Shown in pieces: positions 1-31,444 of a stretch of DNA of 33,554 bases; the stretch's first letter is position 1; each line of letters opens with the position of its first letter. Both the position numbers and the translations under genes were made by a program. A model generated the notes under the pieces. That model was not told where the DNA came from and ran no database searches. It saw only the letters and a list, made by a program, of their open reading frames with translations. Source of the DNA: a virus; IMG/VR virus record IMGVR_UViG_3300044729_001993, positions 1 through 33,554 of that record. One strand, 5' to 3'.

Positions 1-577
1 TCCTCCGGTGTGCGCGGCGCGGCGGGGCCGGTCTTGAACCGGCCCCTGCCGCATCCGCCTTGATATATCCATTGGTAATGCTTGGATTACCAATGGATAA
101 GACTGTCAATGGTTCCACATGGGGGCGCAGTTTGTTCCCAACGGGGGCGCAGTTCGTCCCAGAGGTAGGAACAGTTCGTCCCAAAGGTGGGAACAGTTGT
201 TGCCGACCTTCGGAACAGTTCGTCCCAACGGTTGGAACAGTGCTGTTCCCAACGGGGGCGCAGTTGGAGACCATGTAGACCGACCGCCGTCCCTGCCCGC
301 CGCCTCTCACGAGCACCAAAATCCCCTCGGCGAGAAGCTCGTTCAGCCCCCGATGCACCGAGGATGTCCCTACGCCCATCTGCCGGGCGATCTCGCGGAC
401 GCTAACCCGAACCTCGCACGAGGCGAAGTCGCCCCTATAGAAAGCCCAGAGGGCCATGCGGAGCCCCTGGGCTCCGATGCGGCAGAAAGCCCCGCTCTCC
501 CAGAGAGCACCCCAGCGGCGACGCATCTCGCCCTTCGGGTCGGCTTGGTTCCCGGTCTTTTTCTTCCCGCGTGCCAT
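1..577 (-). CDS. Winged-helix replication initiator (lambda O-like), partial
   Basis: Reading leftward from ATG 577-575, the frame stays open to base 1, so at least 192 residues are present and the C-terminus is outside the window. Residues 1-20 are Lys/Arg-rich. Residues 35-100 form a winged helix: a recognition segment SVREIARQMGVGTSSVHRGL is followed by LNELLAEGILVLVRG and a Gly/Arg wing ending in RRSVYMV. The rest is a low-complexity tail rich in Val, Pro, Gly, Thr, Asn and Cys, encoded by the 22-bp DNA repeats described separately. The start overlaps the stop of the upstream primase-helicase as TGATG, so translation is probably coupled. By analogy with lambda O, I infer that it binds the repeats in its own gene and recruits the neighbouring helicase. 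It could instead be a transcriptional regulator with a repetitive tail. Confidence 0.72.
   Translation of the reverse strand, partial: MARGKKKTGNQADPKGEMRRRWGALWESGAFCRIGAQGLRMALWAFYRGDFASCEVRVSVREIARQMGVGTSSVHRGLNELLAEGILVLVRGGGQGRRSVYMVSNCAPVGNSTVPTVGTNCSEGRQQLFPPLGRTVPTSGTNCAPVGNKLRPHVEPLTVLSIGNPSITNGYIKADAAGAGSRPAPPRRAHRR
24..46. repeat. GC-rich perfect inverted repeat
   Basis: Nine-base arms GGGGCCGGT and ACCGGCCCC are separated by CTTGA. No T-run follows on either strand, so this is not a standard terminator. It lies inside the open frame of the initiator gene and left of the AT-rich repeat, so it may be part of the origin. Confidence 0.5.
66..99. repeat. AT-rich 14-bp inverted repeat beside the iterons
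   Basis: Arms TATCCATTGGTAAT (66-79) and ATTACCAATGGATA (86-99) are perfect, with spacer GCTTGG. It is much AT-richer than its surroundings and adjoins the 22-bp repeats. A DNA unwinding element or accessory binding site at a phage origin would look like this. That role is inferred. Confidence 0.65.
121..270. repeat. Seven 22-bp iteron-like direct repeats (putative replication origin)
   Basis: CAGTT (CAGTG in one unit) anchors fall at 128, 150, 172, 194, 216, 238 and 261, giving five intervals of exactly 22 bp and a last one of 23 bp. The fuller unit resembles GGAACAGTTCGTCCCAAAGG, with outer units starting GGGGGCGCAGTT. A degenerate eighth unit may start near 107. The period is not a multiple of three, so each unit is read in a different frame and the encoded peptide does not repeat from unit to unit. 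Conservation is therefore at DNA level. Tandem units of about two helical turns inside an initiator gene match the organisation of lambda ori within gene O (established). Origin function here is inferred. Confidence 0.75.
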
Positions 578-2346
578 CAGAACCGCCCCCAATCTTGGGC
601 TTTCGGGGCATGGGCCGCGAACTCAGGGATCTCGGCAGCGGCGGCGGCATCCTCGAACCGCTGATACTTGCCGTAGAACCAGAGTTGAACGTCGGCCATC
701 TGGCCCTGACGCAGCTTCTTGCACTTCCACTCGACCAGCAGTTCGCCGTCGGCCCCGACCTCTCCAGTCCGGTGGCCGAATAGAAAGTTGTCGCAGTCGT
801 AGTCGATCTGGTTGGAACCTTTGCCGATGTTCCCGATCTCGGTGCTCGCGTCGCAGCCCTTGGCAACATTCGTCACCAACAGGGTCGCGATGTTCCGGGT
901 CGTGGTCAGTTCGCGGAGTTTGAGCAGGCACTCATTGATCTCGCCGGTCTTGTCTTGAAAGTGGCGATTCGCCCGTATGAGTTGGAGGTAGTCCACGATC
1001 AACAGTGCAGGCTTGTCCTTGTTGATGCACTGCTCGATCTTGTCCATGAGCAGCGGAGCCTCGACCAACTTCAGCCGGTCGCCGACCTTGTTCGAGAGAT
1101 CGACTGCGAGTTTCCGAGCGTTGCCCTGCTTGTGGATCACGTCTTGCAGCGTGAGCGAGTTCTCCCGGCCGCCAAACGTCGTGATCGCCCTCGCCCCGAG
1201 GGCGGCCCGCGTCATCTCCCCGAGGCACCATACCGCGACCATGCCGGGGTTCTGCTCTAGGCAGTCGATCGCCAACTGCATCGCGAGTGCAGACTTCCCT
1301 ACGCCGGGAGCCGCCGCGACGGCGGTCATCTGTCCGAGCGGCAGCCCGCCGTCGAACAGCTTGTCGATCGAAGGGATGCCGGTCGGGATCGCTGGCGTCT
1401 CTTCCTGTTTGCTCCACGCCTCGATGGCATCCACCAGCGTGGGCGTCTTCGTCTCTTCGCTGGCATCCGCGACCGGCACCGCTTCCTCGGCTTGCCCAAG
1501 GATCGGCAGCCGGGGCCGCTTCCACGCGTTGGCGATCTGACGCGGACAGTCTTCAAGATCGTCGCCCCGCAGCCCGACGCGACGCATCCGCTCCATGATG
1601 GTCGAGATCGTTTCCTGCACGCCCCAGCCACGAGCCGCCATGTCGCAGGCGACCGTGAACATCGTCTGCCGTCGCCCGGCGGGGAGCGTGAACCCTTCCT
1701 CTAGGAACCGCCGCGTGAGGTCGCTCATGCTCTTGGCCTGAACGACCACGCTCTGCGATGCCGTCTTGCGAAACCGATCAAGCGGGTAGATCCGCGTCGC
1801 GTCGCAGTCAGACAGCACCGCGAGCGGGCGTTGCTCGTGCTTCCAGTTCACGAATCCAGGCAGCCGCATGATCCGGGGCCAATCGCAGATGGACGAATCG
1901 CTGCCGAGGGCCGACGCGATCGCCTTCATCCGCTCGTGCCACGCGTTCGCGTCCGTCATCGGCTCATCGAGCCGCCACCACGCGTGAACCCCACCGCCGC
2001 TTTCTAGGATCGCGGTCGGCCAGGGCAGACCGGCCGCCTTGATGCGGGCGTAGGCGTCTTCGAGGATCACGCCTCCGTCGAAGTCGGCGAACAAGCACCG
2101 GGCCAGGGCGACGCCCTCGGCCTGACTCTGCCCCTTCGCCTTCCTCGGGTTCGCCCCGAAGTACGCGTGAACGCGTAGCTGCTCAGTGTTCAGCCCGTGC
2201 AGCCACTCCACGATGTCGGGGAGCTCCGCGAGCGTAGACCATCGACGGCCCGCCGACGGTGGAAGAGGTCGGAACTCGATCACATCTTCGGGCTCGAAGA
2301 TGCAGCCGAGGAAATCAATGCACTGGTCGAGAGCGTCCATGCTCAC
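577..2346 (-). CDS. Primase-helicase: AEP-like primase fused to DnaB-type helicase
   Basis: This 589-residue replicative protein has two parts. Residues about 55-195 carry motifs of the archaeo-eukaryotic primase/prim-pol superfamily: FADFD with Asp88 and Asp90, GGGVHAW with His121, and CDWPRIMRLPGFVNWK near 154-169. Residues about 320-575 are a RecA-fold DnaB C-terminal domain with Walker A APGVGKS (346-352), Walker B LLIVDYLQL (448-456) and a final lobe similar to DnaB helicases. It should prime and unwind at the phage fork. The GTG start at 2346 overlaps the upstream stop as GTGA and has AAGG six bases before it. ATG 2340, with AGGTG upstream, is an alternative. The stop overlaps the start of the winged-helix initiator gene. 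Confidence 0.87.
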   Translation of the reverse strand: MSMDALDQCIDFLGCIFEPEDVIEFRPLPPSAGRRWSTLAELPDIVEWLHGLNTEQLRVHAYFGANPRKAKGQSQAEGVALARCLFADFDGGVILEDAYARIKAAGLPWPTAILESGGGVHAWWRLDEPMTDANAWHERMKAIASALGSDSSICDWPRIMRLPGFVNWKHEQRPLAVLSDCDATRIYPLDRFRKTASQSVVVQAKSMSDLTRRFLEEGFTLPAGRRQTMFTVACDMAARGWGVQETISTIMERMRRVGLRGDDLEDCPRQIANAWKRPRLPILGQAEEAVPVADASEETKTPTLVDAIEAWSKQEETPAIPTGIPSIDKLFDGGLPLGQMTAVAAAPGVGKSALAMQLAIDCLEQNPGMVAVWCLGEMTRAALGARAITTFGGRENSLTLQDVIHKQGNARKLAVDLSNKVGDRLKLVEAPLLMDKIEQCINKDKPALLIVDYLQLIRANRHFQDKTGEINECLLKLRELTTTRNIATLLVTNVAKGCDASTEIGNIGKGSNQIDYDCDNFLFGHRTGEVGADGELLVEWKCKKLRQGQMADVQLWFYGKYQRFEDAAAAAEIPEFAAHAPKAQDWGRF

Positions 2347-3220: not shown

Positions 3221-3402
3221 CGTGTCTCCTCCGCGAGCAGTCGCTTGTCGAGGTGTTCGTTCACATCACGCAGGCACCGACAGAGCGTGTGCAGCCGCCG
3301 GTTCTCCTCGCGGAGCCGTTCGTTCTCAGCCTCAAGCGACTCGGCGAGTTGCCGCAGATCGCGGGAGGGGCGGGGGCGGAAGATGTTGCGGAGCCAGTTC
3401 AT
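3217..3402 (-). CDS. Small coiled-coil protein of unknown function
   Basis: This protein has 61 residues. Residues 15-55 are a Leu/Glu/Arg heptad pattern (LAESLEAENERLREENRRL), strongly predicting a coiled coil. Asn residues in core positions suggest a parallel dimer of leucine-zipper type. It overlaps the methyltransferase stop upstream and the wHTH start downstream by four bases each, which supports a real gene. No catalytic motif was seen. It might dimerise with the adjacent DNA-binding protein. Confidence 0.6.
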   Translation of the reverse strand: MNWLRNIFRPRPSRDLRQLAESLEAENERLREENRRLHTLCRCLRDVNEHLDKRLLAEETR

Positions 3403-4382
3403 GCGACGGCCTCCGCGTCGAAGAGGGTGGTCTCGACCTTTCTGCCCCGCGCGGCCTCTTCCATGTTCTTCATCGCCTGCCGGTAGTAGCCGGGCTTGAG
3501 CTCCACACCGATCGCTTTGCGACCGTTGAGCACGGCCCCGTATGCCTCGCTGCCGACGCCCATGAAAGGGGTCAGCACCGTCTCGCCGGGCAGGCTGCGC
3601 AGATGCACGATCCGCTCGATGACATCAAGTTGCAGCGGGTGCATGTGCCGCTCGTCATCGTCCTCGCGGGCCTGCTTGTAGGGGAGCGTCCGCTCTAGGC
3701 GAATGTCATCCCAGAATGCCGACGCGTACTGCCTCCAGATCCAGTGCGAGTAGCGGTTCTCGATCTGCTTGCCTTTGTGCCCGCGATACGTGAGCAACTC
3801 GGCAGGAATCTCCCTCTCGCCTGCGTACTCCAGCAGCCCATTCGGGTTCGCGACCGGCACCGGGTTTTCGCCCTCCTTGCGGAAGAGCAACAGGCAATCC
3901 GCCGATGCCACGTCGCACAGGCTCGCGTCGGTCACGACTTGCTTGTGGGCGAGTCCCTTCGCCATCGTGCGGTTCCGGACGCCGAGCGGCTCCTTCCAAA
4001 TGAAGTGACGGCACCAGAACCGCCAGCCGAGCGACTCGTGAAGGCGAATGATCTCGCCGGGAAAATCCACCAGCCCGCCGGGCGAGGTCTTTCTCGGGAT
4101 GTCCATGCAATGAACCGCCGACAACCGGCCCGGCATCGTCACGCGATGGATCTCGCCGACCACAAAGGCGTAGTGGTCGAAGAACTCTTGATGGCTGCGA
4201 CAGTTTGAGAGGTCACGCTCGGAACTGGAGTAGTGGTACAAGCACCCCGCACCATCCGCAGCGAACGGCGGCGAGTAGATCGAGAGATGTACCGACTCGT
4301 CGGGGATGCTCTGGAGCACCTCGCAGCAGTCGCCGTTGTAAATCGCGTACTCGTCGGTGATTACTTGCTCGCTGACAGCCAT
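3399..4382 (-). CDS. DNA methyltransferase, beta-class (N4-cytosine or N6-adenine)
   Basis: This protein has 327 residues. Motif IV SPPF lies at residues 37-40 and the AdoMet-binding FMGVG motif at 273-277, followed by GVEL (292-295). The order motif IV, target recognition region, motif I is that of beta-class amino-methyltransferases. SPP(F/Y) is more typical of N4-cytosine enzymes, whereas DPPY is more typical of N6-adenine enzymes. It transfers a methyl group from S-adenosylmethionine to DNA and may protect phage DNA from host restriction. ATG 4382 has AAAGGA upstream and overlaps the SNF2 helicase gene by 22 bp. No cognate endonuclease with a clear type II fold is adjacent. Confidence 0.87.
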   Translation of the reverse strand: MAVSEQVITDEYAIYNGDCCEVLQSIPDESVHLSIYSPPFAADGAGCLYHYSSSERDLSNCRSHQEFFDHYAFVVGEIHRVTMPGRLSAVHCMDIPRKTSPGGLVDFPGEIIRLHESLGWRFWCRHFIWKEPLGVRNRTMAKGLAHKQVVTDASLCDVASADCLLLFRKEGENPVPVANPNGLLEYAGEREIPAELLTYRGHKGKQIENRYSHWIWRQYASAFWDDIRLERTLPYKQAREDDDERHMHPLQLDVIERIVHLRSLPGETVLTPFMGVGSEAYGAVLNGRKAIGVELKPGYYRQAMKNMEEAARGRKVETTLFDAEAVA

Positions 4383-5743
4383 TTCGGAATCCTTTCACTA
4401 TGGGGAAACGTCCTGCGGTGATCGACGGCCAGGGCGTTGCCCATGTGCCGCACAAGTGACTCGAACATTCGGTCGGCGGCGTTCGCCTTGCGTCTCAGAT
4501 TCGCGAGCACGCCGACCTCGCCCTCGGTGGCGATGACATGCACATCGACGGGCTGCGTCTGTCCGAACCGCCAGCACCGCCGCACAGCTTGGTAGTACTG
4601 CTCCCACGAGTGAGAAGCGAACGTCACGACGTGGTGACAATGCTGCCAGTTCAATCCGAAACAGCCGATCTTCGGTTTGGTGACGAGCCGCTTGAGTTGC
4701 CCAGCCTGGAACGCGAGCAGGAGCTCTTCCTTTTCGTCTTCGCTCTGCGAGCCGCTGACTTGACGGCAGTCAGGGATAATCCGCTCAAGCAAATCCGCCT
4801 CGTCGTTCAGATGGCACCACACGACCGACGATCCAGGGTGCAATGCCACGAGCCCGGCCGCCGCCTCGCAGCGGTCTTCGAGCGTGATGCGACGCTCTTC
4901 GCGTTGCTCTTGCAGGGTGTCGGCTGGCAGGGAGAACAGCATCCCGGCCCGCGTCTTGCTGCTATGCACGACGTGCTCGTGCTCGCGGAGCGGCGGCAGG
5001 ACGAGCTTGCCGTCATCGAACCCGAGGTCGGAGGGTTTGCGGCACGCCCGAGCCCACGAGCACACCCACCGCCAGAACGGCTCCTCCGCGTGACCGCGAA
5101 AGCGGTAGCTCTTGCGACCCCAGCCGAGGTAGTCCTTGATGACATCCTCCTTGAAGAACCGCGACAGCATGTCTTGGTAGCCCAGATAGCCGAGGGCTTC
5201 GCTGGACGTGCCGAGCTCGTGGTAGTCGTTCGGTGCGGCGGTCGCGGTGCAGAGCAGGCGGTACGGCACGAGTCGCATAAACTCGGTGACTTCCGCTTTC
5301 GTCGCCCCGTCGAAGTTCTTGAGAATGCTCGACTCGTCGCAGACCACGCCGCCGTAGTCGCCCTGGTCGAAGTTGTGCAGCCGCTCGTAGTTCGTCACGA
5401 CGATGCCCGCCTCGGGCTTGCCGCCTGTTGACCGCACCGCCTCGATGCCAAACCGCTTCGCCTCTTCGACGGTCTGGTAGCTGACCGCGAGAGGGGTAGC
5501 GATCAGCACGGGCTTGCCGGTCTGTTGGCGGATGTTCTCTGCCCACACCAACTGCATCGGGGTCTTGCCCATGCCGCAGTCGGCGAAGATCGCCGAGCGA
5601 CCCTTGCGACAAGCCCACTCGATCAGATGTCGCTGGTAGTCGAAGAGCCAGCCCGGCAGGAAGTCGGGCGTAAACCCGTGGTCGCCGTCGAGTTGCTGCT
5701 TCGTTTCGAGAAACGCTGTGTATCGGTCAGATGCTGCAATCAT
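4361..5743 (-). CDS. SNF2-type DEAD/DEAH-like helicase
   Basis: From ATG 5743 (GAGAGGGGA upstream) this is 460 residues. Motif I DCGMGKT lies at 55-61, motif II DESS at 136-139 (a DESS variant common in phage SNF2 proteins), motif III TAT at 166-168, and motif VI with QAVRRCWRFGQ at 385-395. Both RecA lobes are present. It is an ATP-driven DNA translocase or helicase. The frame is open further upstream, but the N-terminal 123 residues of that extension are compositional nonsense overlapping two other genes, so the shorter start was chosen. It overlaps the methyltransferase gene by 22 bp, suggesting the two act together. Confidence 0.87.
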   Translation of the reverse strand: MIAASDRYTAFLETKQQLDGDHGFTPDFLPGWLFDYQRHLIEWACRKGRSAIFADCGMGKTPMQLVWAENIRQQTGKPVLIATPLAVSYQTVEEAKRFGIEAVRSTGGKPEAGIVVTNYERLHNFDQGDYGGVVCDESSILKNFDGATKAEVTEFMRLVPYRLLCTATAAPNDYHELGTSSEALGYLGYQDMLSRFFKEDVIKDYLGWGRKSYRFRGHAEEPFWRWVCSWARACRKPSDLGFDDGKLVLPPLREHEHVVHSSKTRAGMLFSLPADTLQEQREERRITLEDRCEAAAGLVALHPGSSVVWCHLNDEADLLERIIPDCRQVSGSQSEDEKEELLLAFQAGQLKRLVTKPKIGCFGLNWQHCHHVVTFASHSWEQYYQAVRRCWRFGQTQPVDVHVIATEGEVGVLANLRRKANAADRMFESLVRHMGNALAVDHRRTFPHSERIPKWLSASK

Positions 5744-5745
5744 GC

Positions 5746-5979
5746 TCAGTCCCCTCTCCACCGCTTCGGCGGCACGTATCGCTCGGTCTCTGGGTTCTCC
5801 TTCCGCCACTCGGCGAACTTGATCGCGGCGAGCTCCCGCAACGCGGCAGCGGCCTCGGGCACCAGGGTCACGTAGTCGAAGTCGCCTCGCTGCCGCTTCT
5901 CGGCTTCGATCGCCACGAGACGATCGGCCAGAGCCTTGAGCCGAACGATCGGCCTCGTGCCTAGGTAGGCGTCGCTCAT
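5746..5979 (-). CDS. Small hypothetical protein
   Basis: This protein has 77 residues, starting at an ATG that overlaps the upstream stop as ATGA. It is mostly helical, with charged segments (RLKALADRLVAIEAEKRQR; ALRELAAIKFAEWRKENPE) and a basic end, YVPPKRWRGD. It lies two bases before the SNF2 helicase gene. No family was recognised. The helices could support oligomerisation or partner binding. Confidence 0.6.
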   Translation of the reverse strand: MSDAYLGTRPIVRLKALADRLVAIEAEKRQRGDFDYVTLVPEAAAALRELAAIKFAEWRKENPETERYVPPKRWRGD

Positions 5980-6254
5980 GCGGGCACCCGCGTCGCAGCA
6001 TTCGCCATATCGCGGCAGTCCTGGGCACGATCCCGCAGGCCGCACGCGATGCTGTCGATGCTGATGGATGCCATGCTCCACGCAGATGACTCGCTGTCGC
6101 TCCACTCGGCACCGTGCTGGGTCATGTACCCGCCGGGCATCTCGACCCACCACTGCCCAGCGATCGCTCGCAGGGTGCCGCTCTGGATCGTGATGCTCAC
6201 GTACTTCGGGTGTGCTGACCCGACTTGCAAAATCGCTCGATAGACCGTCTTCAT
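5976..6254 (-). CDS. Hypothetical protein
   Basis: This protein has 92 residues from ATG 6254, which has GAGGGAC about six bases upstream. The frame is open to 6296, but that extension has no ribosome site. The N-terminal half is beta-like (MKTVYRAILQVG, KYVSITIQSG, QWWVEMPGG) and the C-terminal half is helical with two Cys. It is coupled by a four-base overlap to the next gene. Function is unknown. The 163 bases upstream (6255-6417) hold no minus-strand gene; only weak inverted repeats are visible there. Confidence 0.55.
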   Translation of the reverse strand: MKTVYRAILQVGSAHPKYVSITIQSGTLRAIAGQWWVEMPGGYMTQHGAEWSDSESSAWSMASISIDSIACGLRDRAQDCRDMANAATRVPA

Positions 6255-9725: not shown

Positions 9726-9813
9726 GCACTACTGAACAGAACGCGAATGGAGACGATGGGGGTTCACGTATGTACAGGTGTGGTACCGTCTTCATGCTGT
9801 TGGAGGCTGGAAA

Positions 9814-10932
9814 ATGCACGATCCCGAAACGCTCCGCTCGATCCTCGACGCAGACTACGCACCCCTGCGAGGCTTGAAGCCGAAAGCCCTGACCCAGTTC
9901 CGGCTGTCCCTCCAGAGGTTCGCCGAGCACCTGGGCCACGAGCCTGCGGTGCCCGACCTGACCGGCATCGCTGTCCAGCGGTTTCTCTCCGCGAGGAAGG
10001 CGAAGGTCTCGGCAGCGACCGCCTTGAAGGATCGCACCCACATCGCCGCCCTCTGGAATCATTTGTTTCGGTTGCGTCGCGTGGAAGTCGCCCCGGCCGC
10101 TGTGCTGCCGCCGATGCGAGCTCCACGCCGAGTGCCTCGGGCATACCGGGATCATGAGGTAGCTGCCATCCTGCGGGCCTGCCTCGCCACCCACGGCGGC
10201 ATCGACGGCCGCCCGGCGTCGATCTGGCACGCCTCGCTCGTGCGGGCCGCGTTTGAGACCGCCGAGCGTGTGGGGGCGTTGCTCGCGGTCGAGTGGCGGG
10301 ATGTCGATCTGCCCGAGCGGACGGTTCTTCTGCGGGCCGAGAACCGGAAAGGAGCCCACCAAGATCTCCTACGGCCGATCTCGGCGATCACCGCTGGCTG
10401 GCTGTCGCAACTTCGCCGGGATGCTGGCGAGCGACGGCTCGTCTGGCGTTGGGATCGCACGCCCACGCATCTCTGGGGGCATCTGCGTGGGATCTGCAAG
10501 CGGGCGGGGGTGCAGCCTCGCGGCTACCACGGGCTGCGGCGTGCTGCCGCCTCCTACATCGCGGCCGCTGGCGGGCTTTCTGAAGCCGCCGCCGCCCTCG
10601 GGCACGCCTCCGCTTCCACGACCCAGGCTCACTACGTGGATCAGACCATCGCGAAACCGACCCGCAGCCACCTCGATATGCTGCCGCACCTCGATCTCGG
10701 GCAGGAGCCCCCCGATCCCGTCGCAGACGCACGAGAATCCGCCCTGCGGGCTGGTCGGCTGGCGGGCCGGGATCTCGCAGCCCGAGGGGAGCCCTGCCCG
10801 GCACGGGCTTCTATAGACGCTCTGGCGGCGGGGGCGGGCGTGCCGGTCGAGATGGTCGGCCACTACCGCCAGGGGCTCGTGGGCGGCTGGGCGGCGGGGC
10901 AGGAAGAGCCGCCCGCCGAGCCTGCCGCCTGA
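9814..10932 (+). CDS. int: Tyrosine integrase (phage integrase family)
   Basis: ATG 9814 is preceded by GGAGG, giving 372 residues. An in-frame GTG at 9778 lacks a ribosome site. The N-terminal SAM-like core-binding region covers about 20-100. The catalytic set is complete: Arg152 (AERVGALL), Lys179 (NRKGAH), His239-x-x-Arg242 (HGLRR), His264 (LGHAS) and nucleophile Tyr274 (HYVD). It performs site-specific integration and excision. About 98 residues follow the tyrosine, longer than usual, Ala/Gly/Pro-rich and of unknown role. It is the only gene on the plus strand and ends two bases from the stop of the convergent HNH gene. No att core could be identified. Confidence 0.93.
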   Translation: MHDPETLRSILDADYAPLRGLKPKALTQFRLSLQRFAEHLGHEPAVPDLTGIAVQRFLSARKAKVSAATALKDRTHIAALWNHLFRLRRVEVAPAAVLPPMRAPRRVPRAYRDHEVAAILRACLATHGGIDGRPASIWHASLVRAAFETAERVGALLAVEWRDVDLPERTVLLRAENRKGAHQDLLRPISAITAGWLSQLRRDAGERRLVWRWDRTPTHLWGHLRGICKRAGVQPRGYHGLRRAAASYIAAAGGLSEAAAALGHASASTTQAHYVDQTIAKPTRSHLDMLPHLDLGQEPPDPVADARESALRAGRLAGRDLAARGEPCPARASIDALAAGAGVPVEMVGHYRQGLVGGWAAGQEEPPAEPAA

Positions 10933-28295: not shown

Positions 28296-29295
28296 GCTGC
28301 CTCAGAACGTCGCGATAGAACGCGGCCCGATCCGCGAGATACTTGCGGGCTTCCTCGTGCTGCCGCCGCTCCTGGCGGAAGTGATTGAATGACCGCTGGG
28401 CTACCGTCACGTCGGCATCGGGATACGCCGGGAACGTGACCGGCCCGACATCGAGCAGCGTGTCGATCTTCTGAATCGTCCGCACGCTGCGACCATCCTC
28501 GACCGCCCACGAGTCGCCGCCGCTCGGCACGGTGAAACTGAACGAGGAACCCTTGACGATGCCCGCCCGAATGTTGCTGGCGATGTCGCGGCCGTAGGTC
28601 GTATCGGGCACCGGGAACTCATACCGCAGCCCGACCTCATCCACGGTCATCCGCAGCGTGCCGGGGTAGCGGGCGAGCGGGTAGTTCGCGTCGTGATTCC
28701 AGAGGGCTCTGGTTTCGAGCGGCTTCTTGCGGCCGCGCCGCTCGGCGACGATCCCGAAGGCACCGGGGTCTATCCGCTCTACGAAGTCGCCGAGATCGAG
28801 CGAGTTGACGCCGAACTTCGCGGCGTAGCCCACGATCCATTCCCGATCGTTGCCGTCCTCGCTGCGGCTCTCGACCGCGAGCAGCGGCACCGCCGACTCG
28901 ATCTCGTCAATCGCCAGAGAACGCCGTTCGATGTTGCCCATGATGCTCCTGCCTTCTTGGTCGGCGGCTTCAATCTGCCGCGTCAGTTTGCTCGCCCACG
29001 CCTGCCCCGGATCGCCACCCCACAACGCCCACGCGATCCGGCCCGCACTCGGGAAGCCGTCCTCGCCGGGGCTCCATCCCTCGCCTTGCTTGTCCACTTC
29101 GTGCCGGGCGAAGTAACTCGCCATCCGCTTCGCCGTGTCGGGCGAGATGCTCACGCCGTTCGAGAGGTCGCGTGCTCGGGCAACGCCGACTGCCGTGCCG
29201 CCTCGGCCGTACTCGTCTCGCCACGCGAGCCCCCTCGCTGCTTCCTCACGCACGCCAGCCGGGGGCGTGAAGTCGATGTGGTCATACCTAGCCAC
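28285..29295 (-). CDS. Prohead protease (S78 type) with extra N-terminal domain
   Basis: This protein has 336 residues from GTG 29295, overlapping the portal gene by eight bases. Residues about 120-270 contain VGYAAKFGV, ERIDPGAF, LWNHD (catalytic His201), LARYPGTLR and GSSFSF (catalytic serine near 250), matching the HK97 prohead protease. It should remove the capsid delta domain. Residues 1-110 form a separate domain with SISPDTAKRMASYFARHEVD and AGRIAWALWGG, seen in other phage proteins but unusual here. ATG 28941 has a good AGGAG and could make the protease domain alone. Confidence 0.88.
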   Translation of the reverse strand: MARYDHIDFTPPAGVREEAARGLAWRDEYGRGGTAVGVARARDLSNGVSISPDTAKRMASYFARHEVDKQGEGWSPGEDGFPSAGRIAWALWGGDPGQAWASKLTRQIEAADQEGRSIMGNIERRSLAIDEIESAVPLLAVESRSEDGNDREWIVGYAAKFGVNSLDLGDFVERIDPGAFGIVAERRGRKKPLETRALWNHDANYPLARYPGTLRMTVDEVGLRYEFPVPDTTYGRDIASNIRAGIVKGSSFSFTVPSGGDSWAVEDGRSVRTIQKIDTLLDVGPVTFPAYPDADVTVAQRSFNHFRQERRQHEEARKYLADRAAFYRDVLRQHGR

Positions 29296-31444
29296 GCTTC
29301 CGCCCCTTCCGCTTCGGCTTGCCGTAGGAGCTCTCCTCAACCGGGGGCGGCTCGGGCAGCGGTTCGATCTTCGTGAGCGTGCTCACCTTGTGACCGACTT
29401 GCGTCTCGGTCGCACGCCATCCGCCGATCACCTCTTCGTAGACCGTGATGAGGGCGGCGGGATCTTCCTCGGTCGCGTCGATCTTGAAATCGGTGCCGGG
29501 GATGTCCAGCGTGCCGTAGTCCATCACATGGTCGATCCGCCCGCGAGCACGACCGCCCGACGAATCCCACGAAACGAAGTCACCCTCCGCAACGCTGCCG
29601 GGGGCGGCACGCGACTCGCTACGAATGAACTGAGGCGAATCGTCCACCCACACGTCAACGTCGATGCCAGCCGCCTGGGCCGCATCATCTTTGAGCGTGT
29701 CACTACCCACGAGCAGCACATCGGAGAAAGCCTCGGCGTAGTCGCCGAGAGATGAGATCACCTCCTCTCGATCCGCCTCGGGCCTGCGAGAAATCATCAC
29801 GACACGATTGCCGTCCGCGACCGCCTTGCGGGCGAACTCGCCCCAGAGCCGAGGATCGGCCGCGAACGTCCGGTCGAAGTCCACCGAGATCGTCATCGAT
29901 CGGCTCGCGGGGAGCGAGGCGGCGGCGGGCTCGGGAGCGGGCGGCTCTGCGACCGGCGCGGGGGCGGCAGCCTGCGTGCTCGTGCCCGCGAGGATGCGAT
30001 CAACCGAAGCCGGTGGGATGCTGGGGAACGATGCGAGAATCAACGCCCCAGCCGCGTCGGTGGTCAGGAGCCCGCCACTGACTTGCGTCAGGATCTCCAA
30101 AATGCCGGTGATCTGGGCACCGTTGAGCGAAACGTCGGCGAGTTGCGGTTCATCCGCCTGGGCCGGGGCGGCATCCGCGACCGGCTCGGGAGCCGGGGCG
30201 GTCTCGTCCACCACGATCTCTTCGACCACGGTCGCGGGCATCGGCTCGGGAGCAGCCGCCGCCTTCTCCAGCGTGGTCATGTTGAGTTGGACGAACCGCG
30301 TGTCGCCGCCTTCGACGGGGTTCATGTTCTCCCACGAGCGGATCTCGTTCACGCTCGCCACGCCCAGATTCCAGAGCGTGTTGTAGTACGCCGAGCGGCC
30401 CGCAGCGTCGGCACGCAACACGCCGCGAGTGTCGAACTCTGCGAAGTATTCGTCATCGCCTTCGAGCAAGTCGCGAGCGATCGAAGACTCGATGCGACGC
30501 AGATACGGCATCAGCCCGTTCGTCAAGAAGTCGAGCGATTGCTGCTCGATATTCGAGAAAGAACTTCTGGTCAAATCGCCCACGAGGTGTGGGGGAACGC
30601 CAAAGAGCCGACACACTTCTTCAACTTGGAAGCGGCGAGCCTCAAGGAACTGGCTCTCTTGGTTGTTCCCGCCGAGCTCCGAAACTTTGAGCCCCCCCTG
30701 CAATACTGCCGTTCGGTTGCTTCGGTCTGGGCCGCGATGAGCCCTCTCCCACTGGTTCCTCGTATTCTCAGCCGCCTCGGGCGAAAGCATCTGATCGGTG
30801 GACAAGATCACGCCCGGACGAGCCCCGTTGCCGAAGAACGTCGCCCCGTGGATCTCGCACGCCCGAGCCAGCCCGATCGCATCGCGGGCGAGCTCAATCG
30901 TGCTCATCCCGTTCACGCCGTCATCGCTCATCCCCCGCACCGACATCACCGCATCCTGCGTGTAGACCGTCGAAGACCCCGACGCTTCGCGGTACGTGTA
31001 CCGCAGCCGGTTGTTTTCGAGTTGCTCGGTCTTCACCCGGCTCGGGTGCAGCGGCACGATCTCGCTGATCGTCCCCCCGCTGTAGACCTTCTCATCGAGA
31101 GCGAACCCGTGCGAGAGCAAGTGCAGCATCATCTGCTCACGCCACTCGAACGAGGTCTGCCACGAGTTCGGCTGCGAGTGCAGGAGCCGATAGAGCGGAT
31201 GCTCGCGGGCGATCTCTTTCCCGCCACCCGACAGCCGCCGGTAGAGATGCAGCGGGAGCCCCGCGACACTGGTCGAGAGCACGCGAATGCACGCGAGCAC
31301 CACGGTCGAACGCAACGCGGTCTCGGCGTCCACCTTCACGCCCGACGGATTGCGGTTGCCGCCAGCCCAGCCCCCAGACTCATAGTCCCAGTTGCGGGAG
31401 TCTTCGCCGGGGAGCCACAGGATGCGAGCGGTTGGGGAGATCAT
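29288..31444 (-). CDS. Portal protein fused to HAD-like and Tudor-like domains
   Basis: This protein has 718 residues, about 300 longer than a usual HK97 portal. Residues 1-390 are portal (VVLACIRVLSTSVAGLPLHLY; EEVCRLFGVPPHLVGDLTR). Residues 438-487 hold a small helical domain (NGAQITGILEILTQV). After Pro/Ala linkers, 517-607 is HAD-like, with DFDRT (522-526), Ser552, Lys585 and VDDSP (600-604). Residues 617-695 resemble the HVA1/DUF2945-type Tudor domain (EGDFVSWDSSGGRARGRI and VGHKVSTLTKI). The tail is Lys/Arg-rich. The portal forms the dodecameric DNA channel. The extra domains would sit on each subunit, if they are retained in the particle. Confidence 0.85.
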   Translation of the reverse strand: MISPTARILWLPGEDSRNWDYESGGWAGGNRNPSGVKVDAETALRSTVVLACIRVLSTSVAGLPLHLYRRLSGGGKEIAREHPLYRLLHSQPNSWQTSFEWREQMMLHLLSHGFALDEKVYSGGTISEIVPLHPSRVKTEQLENNRLRYTYREASGSSTVYTQDAVMSVRGMSDDGVNGMSTIELARDAIGLARACEIHGATFFGNGARPGVILSTDQMLSPEAAENTRNQWERAHRGPDRSNRTAVLQGGLKVSELGGNNQESQFLEARRFQVEEVCRLFGVPPHLVGDLTRSSFSNIEQQSLDFLTNGLMPYLRRIESSIARDLLEGDDEYFAEFDTRGVLRADAAGRSAYYNTLWNLGVASVNEIRSWENMNPVEGGDTRFVQLNMTTLEKAAAAPEPMPATVVEEIVVDETAPAPEPVADAAPAQADEPQLADVSLNGAQITGILEILTQVSGGLLTTDAAGALILASFPSIPPASVDRILAGTSTQAAAPAPVAEPPAPEPAAASLPASRSMTISVDFDRTFAADPRLWGEFARKAVADGNRVVMISRRPEADREEVISSLGDYAEAFSDVLLVGSDTLKDDAAQAAGIDVDVWVDDSPQFIRSESRAAPGSVAEGDFVSWDSSGGRARGRIDHVMDYGTLDIPGTDFKIDATEEDPAALITVYEEVIGGWRATETQVGHKVSTLTKIEPLPEPPPVEESSYGKPKRKGRKRG

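Follow-up and report, generated by a model that had tools for sequence, protein, structure and literature searches.

The left end of the viral contig examined here very probably carries an origin of replication of the lambda O type, in which an array of iterons lies inside the gene of its own initiator and where initiator dimers, a weak duplex and a primase-helicase would act together. The sequence studied, referred to below as the window, covers an entire IMG/VR viral contig (IMGVR_UViG_3300044729_001993, 33,554 nt), whose minus strand carries most of the genes, with the terminase at the right end and the replication genes at the left. Origin activity is what we infer from evidence that is good but purely comparative. 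The segment appears to be a new build of the lambda-like origin, with parts that change in their letters but retain their exact spacing.

Table. Features of the candidate origin segment and of the adjoining gene, in window positions.
Feature	Position	Strand	Remarks
Initiator gene	2..577	-	ATG at 577; runs off the contig end; 192+ aa; from the list of open reading frames
Primase-helicase gene	577..2346	-	589 aa; N-terminal AEP/RepB_primase domain and C-terminal DnaB-type helicase
Unit 1	242..264	-	dyad centre 253; 23 bp to unit 2
Unit 2	219..241	-	dyad centre 230
Unit 3	197..218	-	dyad centre 208
Unit 4	175..196	-	dyad centre 186
Unit 5	153..174	-	dyad centre 164
Unit 6	131..152	-	dyad centre 142
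Unit 7	109..130	-	dyad centre 120; hairpin-1 centre 37.5 bp away
Hairpin/dyad 1	66..99	.	arms 66-79 / 86-99, 14 bp, 6-nt loop, 100% complementary
Hairpin/dyad 2	24..46	.	arms of 9 bp, 5-nt loop; rich in GC
Weakest 60-bp stretch of the 33.5-kb contig	59..118	.	candidate duplex unwinding element; nearest-neighbour energy profile

The preliminary description of this DNA reported seven repeats, with five spacings of 22 bp and one of 23 bp, within the coding region of a winged-helix protein. These figures are correct, and the seven 22-bp units were located at 109-264, in the 3' half of the minus-strand initiator gene, the spacings in the coding direction being 23, 22, 22, 22, 22 and 22. At the best lag, 22, 73 of 100 positions match, against a maximum of 48 over all lags from 8 to 59 in 100 dinucleotide shuffles; the 22-bp periodicity is far beyond chance. 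A scan of the dyad phase revealed that each unit is a dyad, an inverted repeat of the dimer-site type. CAGTT, previously given as the centre of the unit, turned out to be the seam between units, with the dyad centre about 11 bp away.

Scans with the primase-helicase led to 31 and then 80 viral loci, in overlapping sets; the contigs compared are all from uncultured sources, and those checked were classed as linear. The layout is kept in about 30 viral relatives. In the full-length ones (about 66% identity or more, with enough downstream contig) the winged-helix gene comes next and contains 6-7 units spaced 22 bp, often with a single spacing of 23 bp, and the 22-bp register on which the preliminary description relied is still present wherever the flank is adequate. 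The array locus is coupled to the primase-helicase gene in all relatives found. No 22-bp array was detected in the 2.5 kb downstream in the remoter relatives that were examined (about 34-45%, some of them matching in the primase part only). One locus, L078 (44% in the primase-helicase), has a different winged-helix gene, some 500 bases beyond the primase-helicase match, and three units of 22 bp that differ in sequence from those of the window and are not obvious dyads; the module may exist there in another form.

Comparison of close pairs of relatives distinguished the array from the rest of its gene. Within the window's own clade (L003-L004), pS was 0.32 and pN 0.008 in the winged-helix part, against 0.022 and 0.025 in the array, and synonymous differences per site in the winged-helix part and the array were 0.38 and 0.04 for L011-L013 and 0.54 and 0.11 for L024-L026. 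When six pairs were pooled, synonymous differences amounted to 146 of 469 (31%) in the winged-helix part versus 21 of 263 (8%) in the array (Fisher p = 6e-14), an approximately four-fold depletion within the same gene; the pairs L018-L019 and L021-L022 are too similar for significance alone. In the array pS is strongly reduced and about equal to pN, which means that this stretch is under selection as DNA, and the idea put forward earlier from the window alone is thus borne out by the counts in relatives.

These counts also bear on the idea that the repeats are kept for the protein, as a repetitive C-terminal tail with its own function of which the DNA period is a by-product. The reading frame through the array into hairpin 1 was intact in 22 of 22 aligned loci, so that the tail is probably translated, which favours this idea. 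However, the 22-nt period gives a different peptide in each unit, and the tail that follows the winged helix is predicted to be without confident structure (AF2 pLDDT below 50 over residues 110-182). Moreover, in one relative, L073, the frame is broken by a stop codon inside the array, yet the units and hairpin 1 are kept, although this is a single contig in which a sequencing frameshift is possible. Selection for the peptide is therefore highly improbable as the reason for the repeats. The array segment is probably both translated and a DNA element, and we propose that it codes for a flexible linker, in which the choice of amino acids is of little importance.

While the geometry of the segment is fixed, its letters are not. 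The half-sites read TGTTCCC/TGCGCCC in the window's clade and GCGCAC, GGTCAC or GGACAC in another, and are unrelated between the two. When symmetry was scored at every phase, the distance between the best dyad phase and the hairpin-1 centre was exactly 37.5 bp in both clades. This distance recurs in most relatives, a few being left unplaced by the automatic scan; in L020, L052 and L073 it is 36-39 bp from centre to centre. Between the clades the winged helix shares 35% identity, versus 79% for the primase and 71% for the helicase. The winged helix and the half-sites thus seem to diverge together, a correlation that would be expected if initiator and iterons co-change.

The 14-bp inverted repeat said to follow the array is present and perfect (hairpin 1), and a second one had been overlooked (hairpin 2; in the coding direction GGGGCCGGT-TCAAG-ACCGGCCCC). 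In an alignment of 21 sequences RNAalifold gave two stems, with 17 of the 23 pairs changed on both sides in relatives (11 of 14 in hairpin 1 and 6 of 9 in hairpin 2). Doubly changed cells numbered 87, against 5 one-sided; the covariation score was reached by none of 500 shuffles and was lost when the partners were slid. Seven sequences retain a mismatch inside stem 1. This covariation would fit a single-strand hairpin or a double-strand dyad alike. No 60-bp stretch of the contig is less stable than the one in which hairpin 1 sits, and in 14 of 15 relatives the equivalent place ranks within the weakest 0.6% of its locus (3.6% in L012). Inspection of aligned relatives also revealed CA(G/A)(T/G) words (CAGT, CAAT, CAAG) every 10-12 bp through hairpin 1 and its flanks, all in the same direction and, within hairpin 1, in different reading frames; a second protein might bind them, or they may form a strand-opening motif.

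The hairpins lie within a transcribed gene and hairpin 2 is rich in GC, which would suit a role in RNA, as terminators or mRNA structure, with only the iterons forming part of the origin. We regard this as unlikely, since the double changes are strictly Watson-Crick and G.U intermediates are almost lacking, hairpin 2 is not followed by a T-run, and the distance between iterons and hairpin 1 is fixed wherever both were located. The near absence of G.U pairs points to hairpins kept as DNA and not as RNA and, together with the missing T-run, led us to reject terminators. It is also conceivable that the array is an operator or silencer, through which a winged-helix repressor controls transcription of the replication operon, while replication begins elsewhere. 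In this regard, a fold search with the initiator gave Z of 7-8.6 to many winged helices, which is not decisive; the fold is generic and also resembles transcription factors, and the units are dyads of the dimer type. Nevertheless, the array lies in the 3' half of the gene and not at a promoter, the weakest duplex and two hairpins adjoin it at a fixed distance, and the primase-helicase gene is its constant neighbour, all of which makes a regulatory array quite unlikely. More generally, the dyad array could serve another DNA-bound function.

The frame of the initiator gene is open to the contig end, with an alternative in-frame TTG at 592, and the complete gene of L003 encodes 213 aa from its ATG. 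The winged helix spans approximately residues 14-105 (AF2 pLDDT 86-92 over residues 21-90). PHROG replication-initiation families, some of them O-like, matched the window initiator at 1e-6 and those of relatives down to 4.7e-8; the NCBIfam model phage_O_Nterm reached 13.5 bits, far under its cut-off of 45.5. These profile matches suggest that the initiator is only remotely O-like. The plasmid initiators 4pql and 4pt7 were among the fold matches, aligned at rmsd 8-9. A search of the INPHARED phages gave no match at E 1e-5, and no isolated phage in that collection has this initiator.

The primase-helicase gene precedes that of the initiator with a one-base overlap (TGATG). As its AF2 model was too poor for use (mean pLDDT 51), we analysed the protein by sequence profiles. 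The N-terminal part contains the motifs ADFDGG and SGGGVHAWW and matches PF16793 (RepB_primase) at 32.8 bits versus a cut-off of 24.3, this family being above the gathering score in 5 proteins. Profile matches were also obtained to DnaB_C (6.7e-21) and to the PrimPol AEP domain 6zp9 (E 2.5e-6), whereas the RepB' structure 3h25 itself reached only E 0.27. The coupled helicase gene of the preliminary description is thus DnaB-type and adjoining, as had been said, with a fused RepB_primase/AEP domain that had not been named. Lambda P is a helicase loader, which recruits the DnaB of the host; a P-like loader as the partner gene is ruled out here, as the gene is a primase-helicase fusion. Against the INPHARED phages, the matches listed for the helicase were about 20-28% identical and none extended over 80% of the query. 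In the genome collection, relatives were found of the primase domain only (47-59%), on four contigs belonging to three Planctomycetota MAGs, and the initiator was not found in the two such MAGs searched; these distant primase relatives are what suggests a host among the Planctomycetota. One of the MAG contigs, L039, has a primase domain 59% identical followed by a different, by eye DUF3987-like, helicase part, and this domain make-up suggests exchange of helicase modules.

Elsewhere on the contig, a tyrosine integrase (9778-10932, plus strand) is encoded opposite to most genes, and the phage is therefore probably temperate. On the replication side lies an N6/N4 DNA methylase (3399-4382, minus strand; PF01555, 2.5e-15), adjoined by an SF2-type helicase gene (4361-6112). 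The portal protein (29288-31444, minus strand) has a long C-terminal extension with matches to PHROG families of unknown function (residues 514-612, approximately; HAD-phosphatase-like by eye) and to PF11160 Hva1_TUDOR (residues 621-667).

In lambda, too, the origin lies inside the initiator gene, O; its arrayed iterons are inverted repeats to which dimers bind, an AT-rich stretch adjoins them, and the versions of Stx phages have 6 iterons (PMC7466680, PMC5043065). The likeness to lambda O-ori proposed earlier holds for this layout, for the dyad iterons and for the unstable stretch beside the array, but not for the partner gene, which is an upstream primase-helicase rather than a P-type loader. 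Unlike in lambda, there are seven units of 22 bp (six in some relatives), of other sequence. To our knowledge, the two covarying hairpins have no counterpart in lambda. Because the adjacent gene is a primase-DnaB helicase fusion, we consider that the system would work like lambda O/P, and do not file it as a member of that family.

On the IncQ plasmid RSF1010, RepC acts on iterons together with the RepA helicase, and the RepB' primase acts on two hairpins, ssiA and ssiB (PMC4434180, PMC4234260). Common to both are iterons with an initiator (whose binding is putative here), a replicative helicase, an AEP primase of the RepB type, and hairpins at the origin. In contrast to RSF1010, the present system belongs to a phage, its primase is fused to a helicase of the DnaB type, its origin lies inside the initiator gene, and inspection of the alignment showed that a GTG start like that beside the RSF1010 hairpins is not conserved. 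The system thus combines the layout of lambda with the enzyme types of RSF1010. Origins of the pRN1 type, served by an AEP replication protein, have an essential stem-loop that is conserved in shape and not in sequence (PMC4234260), as are the stems described here; pRN1, however, has no iterons, an SF3 helicase and its stem-loop outside the gene.

At the candidate origin, each of the seven dyads would be occupied by winged-helix dimers; as 22 bp are two turns, all units face the same side of the DNA. The initiator-array complex would then open the adjoining weak stretch around hairpin 1, and the primase-helicase would be loaded on the opened strands and make the first primers. Hairpins 1 and 2, single-stranded once exposed, would be likely entry or priming sites for the primase-helicase; that they are priming sites may be so by analogy, and is the least certain step. 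We hold tentatively, as a possibility somewhat short of even, that this is a hybrid system, in which a lambda-like intragenic array of dimer iterons is joined to hairpins that serve as priming sites, variable in sequence and conserved in shape, for a PrimPol-DnaB-type fusion. If so, the phage would start replication without the host DnaA, loader or DnaG.

In summary, these viruses offer a well-populated natural series in which the geometry of the origin is fixed and the recognition sequence has been switched at least once, together with the initiator. With such a series it can be tested directly how the specificity between initiator and origin is altered while function is retained, and whether phage AEP primase-helicases prime at hairpins.
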